Source: a virus
DNA length: 21,070 nucleotides
Strand: one strand, 5' to 3'
IMG/VR virus record: IMGVR_UViG_3300044949_000424
Span: 1 to 21,070 of that record
Part shown: positions 2,390 to 6,949 of the stretch, piece by piece
Layout of the letters: every line of letters begins with the position of its first letter
How positions within the stretch are numbered: the first letter of the stretch is position 1
Notes under the pieces: model-generated
Databases searched by the model: none
What the model was told of the DNA's origin: nothing
The model's input: the letters and a program-made list of their open reading frames with translations, nothing else
Made by a program: the position numbers and the translations under genes

Positions 2390-2397
2390 TATTTAAT
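2390..2397 (-). promoter_or_regulatory. Possible late promoter upstream of the 790+ codon structural gene
   Basis: On the minus strand this reads ATTAAATA, matching six of eight positions of the T4 late-promoter octamer TATAAATA. It overlaps the stop codon of the upstream gene. With the usual T4 late spacing it would start transcription near 2383, leaving a leader of about a dozen bases that includes the ribosome-binding purine tract. In such AT-rich DNA this could be chance. Confidence 0.3.
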
Positions 2398-5300
2398 CTT
2401 TGCCAGTTACAGTGCTAGTGTTGAATGAATCGCCATGATATTGAGTATATCTGCCGCCACCGCTTGCTCCTAGATTCTCATTACCAAGAATAATTGGTGG
2501 GCTCAATGTTGGGTTAGGTGATTCTGGTATTACTATATCCTCGATTGGGGAAACTGGAACAGATGGGAACCATGCAGTACCATCAAAGGATCCACCATAA
2601 GCGAATGGACTTCTTGGAATGTTGCTCCACCATGGATCAAACTCAAAGTAAATTGGTAGATCTCTTCCTCTTTCTCTATTTGTAGGTGGCTTATTATGTG
2701 AAAGCAATCCCTCACAAACATATGTATGTGCTTCTTCAACAGTGAGTTTAATAACCTCACCATCATCAAACTCTGAAATTCCAAGGACTTCATATTGTCT
2801 TGGAGCAAGTCCAACCATATCACCGACCTCAAGATCTTCAGCATTCACCCACTTTCCATCCATATAGAACTTGTGAGTGAGTGAGCAAACGAAATCGACA
2901 TGTTCGAATTCGATTTGAATTCGTGGACAATCTTGTACTGATTCAACATGAGTGACCATGTACGTTCCAAGATCCATCGTCAATTCATGATTTGTCTTGA
3001 CATACATTCCTGGCTTAATATCACCAGCAGGTCTGCTTATTCCACCCATCAATTCAATCATCATCCAAGGAGCAGGGCAAGAATCTGGCGGCGTAATGTC
3101 AACTGGATCTGCACCAATAACTGGAGCAGGTCCTGCAGGCGGAGCAACAATGATAACTGAGCCAGGATCTGTTGGTGGATTATCACCAGGATTTACGATA
3201 ATCTGAGTATTTGCGTTACTCGATGGGATTGGTAGTGTTGATGGTGAGGGTGATTCAGTGACGATTTCTCGGATTACAACTTGCTTTTCAACAATTCTTT
3301 CTGGAACCGTGATCACTTCTGGCTTCAACGTTTCAGAAACCCAATAGTCTGTTTCTGGAGTAATCGAAAGCGTTCCGTTGAATTGCCCGAACAAGAATGG
3401 CTGAACCGAAACAGCCTTATCTGCAGCAAGCCCTTGCACAATGGCTGGAGATTCAGTATATTGCAGAGTCACTGTCTTTTTATTTGTTCTTGCAGAACTT
3501 ACAGCAATGCGCTTGAATCCAACTGAATTGACATTCATTGGAGGGATCAAGAATCCACCCTCTAGAGCCGCATTGAAGTCGGAGTTTTTGTAGTCTGCAA
3601 TATTGAAATTGATGAAATTTTCACCAACCATACCATACTTTTCTTTCTCTGTACCATCCTCATATTGAGTCTTGTCAGACATAGCCAAGTTTTCAACATT
3701 GTTTAGTGAGGTGAAGAATTCAACTTTCTGTATTCTCTTTTCAAGAGAAGAAATGTCCTTCATGGTGAATCGACGATTTTCGTTATAGATCATCTTCACT
3801 TCACGAATATCTGCCACATATGGTGGTAGTTTAATCGTGTAAAGAGTCATTGCGTCATCAACGTCCTCTGGAGGTAGAGGCTGAGGAGATGATTTTCCTC
3901 TGATAACTCTGAATTCTTTATCTTTCGAGAGAACCAGTTTGTCGATTCTAGGTAGATAATACTGGAACGTTACTTCGCTGACCTCATCTGGTGATGGGAT
4001 ATTTGCGTTTACGAATGATAGAGATCCGTCACCCAAAGTTCTGGTTGCACGGAAATCTAGACAATCTCTTAGATTGTAAACTGTTCCATCCTTTGCAGTG
4101 TAGATTGGAATTGCACCATTCTCATATTGAGTCTGAGAGTATGAATCTACAGAGAAGAACGAAACGTTTGCACCAGAAGCATAAACGTGTTGATACATGT
4201 CAACATGGACTAGTAGTTTTGCTGTTGGGCTGTCATATCCAGACTTCAAGACCAATTTAGCATGATCGTACATGTCATCTTTCTGACCGTAATCGACATA
4301 GAAACGATTGGTAATGTCATTTACGTTGTTTATATCAGGATAATGAGTTGTATTACCAGCCAAGACTTTGTTTACTTTTACAACATCTGGAACGAACAAT
4401 GAAATTTCATCACCTGGACGAACAGTATTATACGTTACATCACCTAAGAAAATAAACCCTTGAGCGACGTTGATGTTTGCAACAGCACCATAACCTGGCA
4501 ATGTTACTGTGGTGTTTCCGTTTTCTGCAGTTGGATAGGTGAAGTTTGTTCTAGACCCTAACCAAGTTGTATTGCTGATGTAGTTTTTCTTTCTAATTTT
4601 ATCTTCTGCATCATTTTGTTTCACGTTAATCAAAACATCGACAGTCTTTAACTGAGGAACATTTGTGTCAATAGTAATCTGTGTAGAAGTCACAGTTAAA
4701 TTTGCAGAAGTTAATTGTAGCGTATCGCCATTTGAGACACCTGAAGCGCCGCCATTATCTCTTACAACTACAATGAGATTATCTTGAATGGCGCTAGTAG
4801 AATCTGCCCATGGGATTGACTCGAATGAGTCTAGTCCTGCAGTTGTACCTACAATGAAAATGCTTGGTGTTGTATTTGGTCTTGTTAGCAACTTGTTATA
4901 GTTGTAATCAACATTATTCAACGTTGAACGACTTACATAGTTTGCTGGTAAACGGAAGATCAATGCAGTCTTTATTTTATCTTCTAGCGAAACTTCTCCA
5001 GTTTGATACTTGGAGAAACTGGAAACGTTCATAGAAGAATTAGCCACAGCGACAGTCACGTTATTGACAGATGGTCCAGAAACAAATGATTCAGCGTGGT
5101 CAATGTGATAATTGAGTTGAATCACGGTATTTTGATCTGGAATACCACCATTATCGAATGTGCGGCTGATTTGAAGAACCACATTATCATTGAATAGATC
5201 AGAACGAGTTATTGTTCTTGTTTGACCTGATGTATTTTGTGTATAATCTGTTTGCTTAAAGACGAATAGTGGTTGAGAAGTGCCAGTACCTTCGAAAGTA

Positions 5301-6949
5301 TAATCCCATGCTGTATTGACTGTTAGGAAGTCACCAGCAGTATTAATACTTACAACTTCGCGAACCATGTCCCCTACGCGAATAATGCTACCAACAGAAA
5401 TGTTTGGTGGCGTGAAGACTTGAGCCACTGCACTATTTGCATTTAGACGATATCCATTTTGCTGGACATTTGCTTTAGATACGTTAGCAATATTATCAAG
5501 TCTAATTGGGAGAACTGTGACAGTTATATTGGCATATGCATTTGTATTAGCACTGAATCTGTTAGAGACATTTATTGAGGTCGCGTTTGCAGCGAGACCT
5601 GAAACTTTAACAACCTTTGGCTGCATATTGATGTCAGTCAAATAGAGTTTGTATACTCCATTAGAATCAGTTGTTGTATTGAACAAGTCTGCAGAGTAGC
5701 GAATAAAGTTCTTAACTCTTGCGGTTCCAATTTTAGTATTTTGATAAATTGATGCGTTAGCGGTGCCTGCATATGTTCCAGTAGCGCGAACGTTTGAAGA
5801 ATCAACGCAGTGAATGTCTACTGTTTCTAGAGCAGCAATATTAATGAAACCATTTGATGTTCCGCGCAATGCTGTAGTGTAAACATAATTTCCATAAGAA
5901 ACATCAACATCAATATCATTTAGAGCCTTAACGTCGGAGGCGCTTCTTGGTTTTGCTGCATCAATCTTCAGAGTGCCGATTGTTTCAAACTCAAAGCCCT
6001 TTACATAAGCCTTTCCTGGCTCGATAGAAATCGTATAGTTATTTGCATCAGTGCCATTTTGTATAGAAGCGCGGAATGGACGAACTGTGTAGTCTCCAGA
6101 CTCGTCGAATGTTCTACGAGCCAAAGTCTTTTCTAGTTCAGCGTAAATTGGATACTTGACTTGTTTGGTGATTGCACCATTCTCAACGCGCATCAACTCA
6201 AAGAATTGAGATTCATCGACAACTGTGTCGAGTGGGCGAGTTGAAAGAGCAAGATTAAACTGATAGCGATCCGCGCCTGGAGCCTGATAATTGAATGATG
6301 ACTGTGCTGGATCGAGAAGCGTTGTATCGATATCGCTGTCTACAATATCATCAGAAATTTCAAGACCAATCTTTACATTTGCAGAAGTTGAATATGGGCT
6401 CACAACTGCTGTTTGATCTGGAACCTGAACGAAGAATCCGTCGACGTAGAATACGCCTTCATTGACGGAACATACTGTTGCATTACCGTTTGCAGAAGAA
6501 CCGACTAATTGAGCCTGTGTATCTGTTCCAACGATCTTAATAGCCTCACCATCGGCGAATTCAACGCCTGTGATATATTTGATGAGTAGAGTTGGGATAC
6601 CGTTTTCTGGGTAGTATGTGGTGAGAACTTTGGCTTGGGCTGAACCATCTGCACTACGGATTACTTTCTTATCGAATTCTTCAATGTCAATATCAGTACC
6701 TGCAAAGGTTTCTGAAAGTTTGATAAACTTCACTTTATTATCTAAAGTGAGGTTTCCACCGATAACAGGAGATCCGTTTTGGAAGATATGATCACCAAAT
6801 TGCTTGATTTGGTTCTGGATCATCGACTGAATTTGCGTTAATTCACGAGCCTGAACTGCACGACCTGGCTTAAACAATATGCGGACATAGTTATTGTCTA
6901 GCGCATTATTCTGGAAATCGTCGTTATATGGTTCTATGTTAAATTCCAT
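2393..6949 (-). CDS. DUF4815-type virion structural protein with an embedded Hint (intein-like) domain
   Basis: This 1518-residue protein begins FNIEPYNDDFQNN...VRILFKPGRAVQARELTQIQ...IKQFGDHIFQNGS, the characteristic opening of DUF4815 structural proteins of large T4-like phages. That domain covers roughly the first third. Beta-rich domains follow, including a GT-type module at about 510-560 (VGDMVREVVSI..AGDFLTVNTAW). A Pro/Ser/Thr-rich linker at about 1215-1290 leads into a Hint domain at 1291-1419, then a 99-residue Pro/Gly/aromatic-rich tail. No catalytic glycosidase or protease domain was recognised. It lies 14 bases after gp8, with a GGGT tract before ATG, where T4 has gp9-gp12. It is likely a baseplate-periphery or fibre-attachment protein. 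The family call is strong; the exact position in the virion is unknown. If the Hint domain is active the mature protein would be shorter than encoded. Confidence 0.9.
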   Translation of the reverse strand: MEFNIEPYNDDFQNNALDNNYVRILFKPGRAVQARELTQIQSMIQNQIKQFGDHIFQNGSPVIGGNLTLDNKVKFIKLSETFAGTDIDIEEFDKKVIRSADGSAQAKVLTTYYPENGIPTLLIKYITGVEFADGEAIKIVGTDTQAQLVGSSANGNATVCSVNEGVFYVDGFFVQVPDQTAVVSPYSTSANVKIGLEISDDIVDSDIDTTLLDPAQSSFNYQAPGADRYQFNLALSTRPLDTVVDESQFFELMRVENGAITKQVKYPIYAELEKTLARRTFDESGDYTVRPFRASIQNGTDANNYTISIEPGKAYVKGFEFETIGTLKIDAAKPRSASDVKALNDIDVDVSYGNYVYTTALRGTSNGFINIAALETVDIHCVDSSNVRATGTYAGTANASIYQNTKIGTARVKNFIRYSADLFNTTTDSNGVYKLYLTDINMQPKVVKVSGLAANATSINVSNRFSANTNAYANITVTVLPIRLDNIANVSKANVQQNGYRLNANSAVAQVFTPPNISVGSIIRVGDMVREVVSINTAGDFLTVNTAWDYTFEGTGTSQPLFVFKQTDYTQNTSGQTRTITRSDLFNDNVVLQISRTFDNGGIPDQNTVIQLNYHIDHAESFVSGPSVNNVTVAVANSSMNVSSFSKYQTGEVSLEDKIKTALIFRLPANYVSRSTLNNVDYNYNKLLTRPNTTPSIFIVGTTAGLDSFESIPWADSTSAIQDNLIVVVRDNGGASGVSNGDTLQLTSANLTVTSTQITIDTNVPQLKTVDVLINVKQNDAEDKIRKKNYISNTTWLGSRTNFTYPTAENGNTTVTLPGYGAVANINVAQGFIFLGDVTYNTVRPGDEISLFVPDVVKVNKVLAGNTTHYPDINNVNDITNRFYVDYGQKDDMYDHAKLVLKSGYDSPTAKLLVHVDMYQHVYASGANVSFFSVDSYSQTQYENGAIPIYTAKDGTVYNLRDCLDFRATRTLGDGSLSFVNANIPSPDEVSEVTFQYYLPRIDKLVLSKDKEFRVIRGKSSPQPLPPEDVDDAMTLYTIKLPPYVADIREVKMIYNENRRFTMKDISSLEKRIQKVEFFTSLNNVENLAMSDKTQYEDGTEKEKYGMVGENFINFNIADYKNSDFNAALEGGFLIPPMNVNSVGFKRIAVSSARTNKKTVTLQYTESPAIVQGLAADKAVSVQPFLFGQFNGTLSITPETDYWVSETLKPEVITVPERIVEKQVVIREIVTESPSPSTLPIPSSNANTQIIVNPGDNPPTDPGSVIIVAPPAGPAPVIGADPVDITPPDSCPAPWMMIELMGGISRPAGDIKPGMYVKTNHELTMDLGTYMVTHVESVQDCPRIQIEFEHVDFVCSLTHKFYMDGKWVNAEDLEVGDMVGLAPRQYEVLGISEFDDGEVIKLTVEEAHTYVCEGLLSHNKPPTNRERGRDLPIYFEFDPWWSNIPRSPFAYGGSFDGTAWFPSVPVSPIEDIVIPESPNPTLSPPIILGNENLGASGGGRYTQYHGDSFNTSTVTGKD
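2693..3079 (-). other. Hint / bacterial intein-like (BIL) domain within the DUF4815 protein
   Basis: Residues 1291-1419 of the host protein carry the ordered blocks of a Hint fold. Block A starts with a Cys nucleophile (C1291, after PPDS) and runs on to GDIKPGMYVKTNHE. Block B holds CSLTHKF, with S1356 and H1359 giving an SxxH variant of TxxH, followed by GKWVNAEDLEVGDMV. Block F is VIKLTVEEAHTYVCEGLLS (H1408), and block G is H1418-N1419. The residue after Asn is Lys, not Cys, Ser or Thr, so the usual C-extein nucleophile is absent. At 129 residues there is no room for a homing endonuclease. These traits fit mini-Hint/BIL domains, which cleave or splice by altered routes, rather than a standard mobile intein. 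The motif reading is direct; activity is inferred. Confidence 0.8.

Follow-up and report, generated by a model that had tools for sequence, protein, structure and literature searches.

The closest described relatives of the domain analysed here are Hint domains in which Cys1 forms a thioester and Asn cyclises; without a nucleophile at position +1 these mainly cleave, with some ligation possible (PMC7664689, PMC5874633, PMC7765530), and cleaved products predominate among BIL domains of this kind (PMC7664689). A-type BILs measure about 130–155 aa, contain no endonuclease, end in His-Asn followed by a non-nucleophilic residue and reside in bacterial, often secreted, proteins. Our domain lies in an IMG/VR virus record, of which we analysed a stretch of 21,070 bases (the window). 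It agrees with A-type BILs in its size (129 aa, no endonuclease), in Cys1, in its end without a +1 nucleophile (SHN-K), in the variable linkers around it and in the Hint fold, with a TM of 0.87 to each of 2lwy and BIL2 of Tetrahymena BUBL1 (6y75). It differs from them in its carriers, which are phage or prophage proteins and, where classified, tail proteins, in belonging to a family with a conserved Lys at +1/+2 and a His-Glu motif, and in being only about 17–18% identical to the BILs of solved structure.

Class 1 mini-inteins (gp41-1, NpuDnaB, SspDnaB) share the fold and blocks A, B, F and G with the window domain which, unlike them, lacks Cys, Ser or Thr at +1 and sits in a Pro-rich linker, without a conserved host site or an exact restoration of the host sequence. 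Class 3 inteins have no Cys or Ser at position 1 and a block-F Cys in WCT, whereas the window domain has Cys1. Hog-Hint (1at0) shares the fold and the possibility that an outside nucleophile takes up the Cys1 thioester, but the window domain ends in His-Asn and precedes a 99-aa Pro/Gly/Trp-rich tail with no sterol-recognition region. PT-HINT, the pretoxin Hint (PF07591), is the best Pfam match, although the window protein scores below its cut-off and no toxin domain is seen downstream. Structural matches also include BFVD entries from uncultured Caudovirales (e.g. A0A6J5KSY2) labelled "Hint domain containing protein", which are labels only. We give a probability of about 0.6 to the reading that the insert is a catalytically competent, BIL-like autoprocessing Hint domain belonging to a phage tail-protein clade, in which the Lys would serve as helper or as amine acceptor.

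The window contains a minus-strand operon of T4-like baseplate genes, with profile matches to gp6, gp8, a gp25-like wedge protein and a gp5-like hub. The carrier is a DUF4815/VrlC-like tail protein ORF of 1518 aa (P0001; 2393..6949, minus strand, as are all features below), which matches PF16075 (8e-60) and phrog_358 (1e-207 over residues 2–1214). It corresponds to the first half of what Kyanoviridae phages encode whole, in a single ORF. One undivided ORF of about 1580–2500 aa also encodes the DUF4815 protein of Mosig, Melnitz, S-8S29, K471 and Marzo. The next gene, P0003 (1..2370), runs off the window and is homologous to the C-terminal part of the single-ORF VrlC proteins; it aligns to positions 1321–1614 of the 2056 of phrog_358, and a single PHROG profile spans both P0001 and P0003. 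Upstream, P0002 (8984-13597) and P0004 (6964-8976) contain repeats of ~45 aa of the type VVGNGTxFxTxLxVNDxIxVNxxxRxVxxVxxxTxLxVN. The LSHNM at the listed TTG start of P0002 (13583-13597) is a chance overlap with the upstream gene, and translation probably begins at an ATG four codons further on.

Residues 1291–1419 of the DUF4815 protein (2693..3079) form a Hint domain, exactly where the initial annotation had placed it, between a Pro-rich linker (residues 1230–1290, 3080..3262) and a 99-residue Pro/Gly/Trp-rich C-tail (residues 1420–1518, 2396..2692) whose FEFDPWW motif (2627-2647) is also present in relatives without the domain. It starts with Cys-Pro-Ala-Pro and ends with SHN, followed by Lys1420. 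The residues that had been read from the sequence are all in place: Cys1291 (3077..3079), the N-S acyl shift nucleophile; block B, Ser1356-Leu-Thr-His1359 (2873..2884); block F, Glu1406-Ala-His1408-Thr-Tyr1410 (2720..2734); block G, His1418-Asn1419 (2693..2698), for Asn cyclisation; and Lys1420 (2690..2692) at +1, where no Cys, Ser or Thr occurs. There is likewise no homing endonuclease, because 129 aa leave no space for one. To these we add a family-specific motif, His1321-Glu1322 (2984..2989).

The profile and structure comparisons that the initial annotation had called for gave Hint matches in Pfam, in PDB sequences and with Foldseek, so the motifs are no chance resemblance. PT-HINT scored 22.8 bits with the whole window protein and 25.9 bits with the domain alone, under the curated gathering cut-off of 27.7; three homologues matched it too, at best with 1.3e-6, and the best match to Intein_splicing was 3e-4. 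A three-sequence profile retrieved inteins and one BIL domain from PDB sequences with E values of about 1e-3, the gp41-1 intein at 1.5e-3. AlphaFold2 reached a pLDDT of only 49.6 from three sequences, and the run used instead, from seven, gave 93.5 with a pTM of 0.86. Foldseek returned 63 PDB matches to this model at E<=1e-3, and those listed are inteins, BIL or hedgehog domains. The top match was the BIL2 domain of BUBL1 (E 2.4e-10, TM 0.87), and the other TM values were 0.87 for the C. thermocellum BIL 2lwy, 0.85 for the NpuDnaB intein and 0.82 for Hog-Hint 1at0; SspDnaB was also among the best matches. In tblastn searches of isolated phages the window domain found weak intein matches and nothing stronger, and its relatives were located in IMG/VR and in prophages.

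Two close carriers of the domain were found (L001 and L008), and scanning with the conserved region that precedes the Hint yielded 30 loci. In most relatives the same Pro-rich linker passes directly into a Trp/Gly-rich tail, without a Hint (e.g. L011, L014, L026 and L041), and the domain is thus an insert, because close relatives keep linker and tail without it. The window, L001 and L008 form one clade (100/99) among Hint-less sequences in the protein tree, and a further DUF4815 carrier, L049, is far off on it; the Hint state must therefore have changed at least twice. The domain aligns among the three carriers with zero gaps over 129 aa and a dN/dS of 0.15–0.17 (NG86, with synonymous sites close to saturation), whereas the flanks evolve fast, with a dN of 0.39–0.54 in the N-side linker and of 0.25–0.60 in the gapped C-side linker. 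By this measure, the Hint of the window clade is under purifying selection.

A profile of the C-terminal half detected the same type of Hint in another DUF4815 protein (L048–L050) and in other phage proteins (L051–L053), all with SHN-K. The DNA pattern [DE]AHTY-x4-h-h-[S or similar]-HN, which placed no condition on +1, then matched viral contigs in at least 119 places and, combined with a profile search of every ORF retrieved, gave at least 120 different domains in at least 90 clusters at 80% identity. Cys1 could be found in 84 of 90 clusters, the remainder mostly running off the contig end. Seven of the 90 have Ser or Cys at +1 and are read as inteins; in an unbiased scan Ser occurred there once in 80, in an intein. 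We analysed the 77 non-intein clusters with an identifiable Cys1, members without one being excluded. HN and AHTY were thus imposed by the pattern in most members, and Cys1 (77/77) by the choice of the set. Conservation of the block-B His (77/77), the block-B Ser/Thr (77/77), the His and the Glu of the His-Glu motif (73/77 each) and the Lys was not imposed, and the median pairwise identity of the 77 domains is 37%. The window domain has the whole defining set (Cys1, S/TxxH, the HE motif, SHN and Lys at +1 or +2). As judged from these sequences, the HN-K tail-protein Hint clade is large, with at least 77 clusters, and is marked by His-Asn-(x)-Lys.

Two architectures occur. In 38 members the domain is internal, as in the window, usually with HN-K-[S/T/P]-P and Pro-rich flanks, and 36 of them have Lys at +1/+2; in the other 39 it is C-terminal, with 2–20 residues after Asn, often preceded by poly-Gly (Gly makes up 44% of the last 15 residues), and 38 of these have Lys at +1/+2; L188 from Stakelama pacifica (SHN-IKQQTDV) is one such C-terminal member. 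PHROG searches of 32 host proteins matched phrog_5616 (tail fibre) in nine, phrog_31 (central tail fibre J) in five, phrog_1101 (tail protein) in three, other tail families in two each and phrog_358/DUF4815 in one. Pfam matches were to Phage-tail_3 (four), the RcGTA-hub-like Rcc01698_C (two) and DUF4815 (one), and 13 of the 32 matched PT-HINT at E<=0.01. Going by these profiles, the carriers are mostly tail proteins among those classifiable, many internal-type carriers falling outside; the DUF4815 host is therefore not unusual within this family, in contrast to what had been supposed. The DNA pattern also found copies in genomes of Stakelama (S. pacifica DSM 25059), Sphingopyxis (S. flava), several Sphingomonas, Anaeromyxobacter (sp. 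PSR-1) and Pyxidicoccus, although scanning bacterial genomes with a profile gave no match. In the order of one carrier, 3 of 201 genomes contain an HN-K Hint, which fits the expectation for prophage genes.

The signature of the clade is the Lys, which stands at +1 in 38 of the 77 members and at +2 in 36, together 74/77 (these are related sequences, not independent ones), and at +3 or +4 in the remaining three, so that all 77 have it within +4; the background of Lys at +3 to +12 is 2.2% of residues. In the seven intein-like clusters neither +1 nor +2 is ever a Lys. For the same positions in bacterial PT-HINT domains the comparison comprises just five motif matches, at least one of them doubtful, and one has Lys; it is too small to support any conclusion here. 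Well-supported branches of the domain tree force at least eight changes for the +1 group and six for the +2 group, and sister sequences differ in where the Lys stands, such as L136 (HN-IK) and L104 (HN-KL), or L072 and L179. Retention of the Lys while its position shifts points to selection on the residue, beyond inheritance alone, and suggests an unusual cutting or cross-linking of viral proteins.

Under the autoprocessing reading, Cys1291 would attack the preceding peptide bond, producing a thioester where the DUF4815 body and its Pro-rich linker end, and Asn1419, guided by His1418 and His1408, would cyclise and cut the other junction. Without Cys, Ser or Thr at +1 normal transesterification would be impossible, so mainly cleaved proteins are to be expected. 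The Lys behind Asn may assist by holding the scissile bond in position, or by accepting the thioester through its amine, and in the virion the end of the tail protein might be trimmed, or covalently re-joined, during assembly. However, about half of the members end 2–20 residues past Asn, where a C-side cut would free almost nothing, and a single purpose may therefore not cover both architectures. The initial annotation had proposed that selection favours cleavage, or else a splicing that dispenses with the +1 nucleophile; this fits the at least 77 clusters, but the Lys is more than an absent nucleophile. Conserved catalytic residues alone are no proof of cleavage in the virion; the activity, its product and its role are what we infer from the sequences and, within the autoprocessing reading, cleavage most likely holds the larger share.

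The Lys could be catalytic or positioning, perhaps paired with the His-Glu motif, in a domain that simply trims the tail protein. We consider this version, with cleavage as the sole outcome, a serious candidate at somewhat less than even odds: His1321-Glu1322 is conserved like the Lys, and A-type BILs mostly cleave (PMC7664689, PMC5874633, PMC7765530), but it does not by itself explain the need to cut off a C-tail of 2–10 residues. In a less likely alternative the epsilon-amine of the Lys, whether of the same chain or of an adjacent subunit, would accept the Cys1 thioester in place of a +1 Cys, Ser or Thr. Asn cyclisation might then leave the tail protein joined through the Lys side chain, as a built-in cross-link, an outcome that we regard as similarly doubtful. 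The Lys is the sole conserved C-side residue and has moved at least eight times between +1 and +2; an isopeptide bond would require no final acyl shift, so either position could be tolerated. All three exceptions keep a Lys, at +3 or +4. In L175, which has the shortest C-tail (SHN-FK*), the ORF stops directly behind the Lys, and in the Anaeromyxobacter copy (SHN-ATKL*) it stops one residue past it. Behind Asn the window clade has a K-x-P that is absent from the linkers of the Hint-less relatives examined; it therefore seems to be part of the Hint module, with which the Lys would have arrived. Nevertheless, a Lys that merely positioned the cleavage site would give the same pattern, the Lys side chain is largely protonated at neutral pH, and we know of no case of isopeptide transfer to Lys by a Hint domain.

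An inactive structural module that retains the Hint fold seems improbable. Loss of the block-B His in related tail-protein Hints (L036–L038 and phage DLP6) would agree with it, but the HN-K clade keeps this His in 77/77, together with Cys1 and His-Asn, at 37% median identity. These related domains are a second Hint-like type, which in L036, L037, L038 and L043 (Stenotrophomonas phage DLP_6) follows poly-Gly where split DUF4815/VrlC proteins have their C-terminus, and which ends in HHN-I or SHN-A. No Pfam or PHROG family matched them, so that they are recognised as Hints by their motifs and by a partial family-profile match to DLP6 and LucasX.

We also considered an ordinary class 1 mini-intein in decay after drift at +1, as the fold, blocks A, B, F and G and the relatives with empty sites might indicate. 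This is very improbable, because all other catalytic residues are retained with a low dN/dS, the location is in fast-changing linkers and at no conserved site, the flanks do not restore the Hint-less sequence, and a non-nucleophilic +1 is the rule across the clade; we rejected a drifting intein on its +1 residue, its site and selection. Least probable of all is a joining in trans of the split VrlC halves, P0001 with P0003, akin to the link to a neighbouring gene product that had been proposed as a purpose: a Hint does stand at or near the end of the first VrlC half in the window clade and in L048–L050, as the other Hint type does in L036–L038 and phage DLP6, but the split is independent of the Hint because Hint-less relatives such as L011 have the identical one, no partner Hint piece is seen on P0003, and most family members have no known split partner gene.

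Neither the fold nor the general chemistry is new; the HN-K tail-protein clade and its Lys signature are apparently undescribed, no paper on either being found in the open-access literature searched. The tie of this large clade to tail proteins, together with its sharp Lys signature and its copies in named strains, offers a concrete biological setting for BIL-type Hint domains, with tests at single residues. Should the Lys indeed accept the thioester, Hint chemistry would acquire a new outcome, a built-in fastening of tail parts, and protein engineering a new and useful ligation chemistry.

Some members depart from the common arrangements. Proteins in L133, L101 and L180 contain two HN-K Hint domains each, the second in L180 starting six residues past the first. 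In L048, L049 and L050 the DUF4815 ORF stops, after the Hint (about 6690-6980 in L049), inside an apparent S74-type chaperone start (SDINLKSNIQPIDNALNRL), the remainder of which runs on in another frame in L048 and L049. Lastly, L194, from a Gemmatimonadetes MAG, encodes (ORF 5341-6219, minus strand) an HN-K Hint after a short leader ending in ELEAVAGG that resembles a double-glycine leader, in what is apparently not a phage tail protein.
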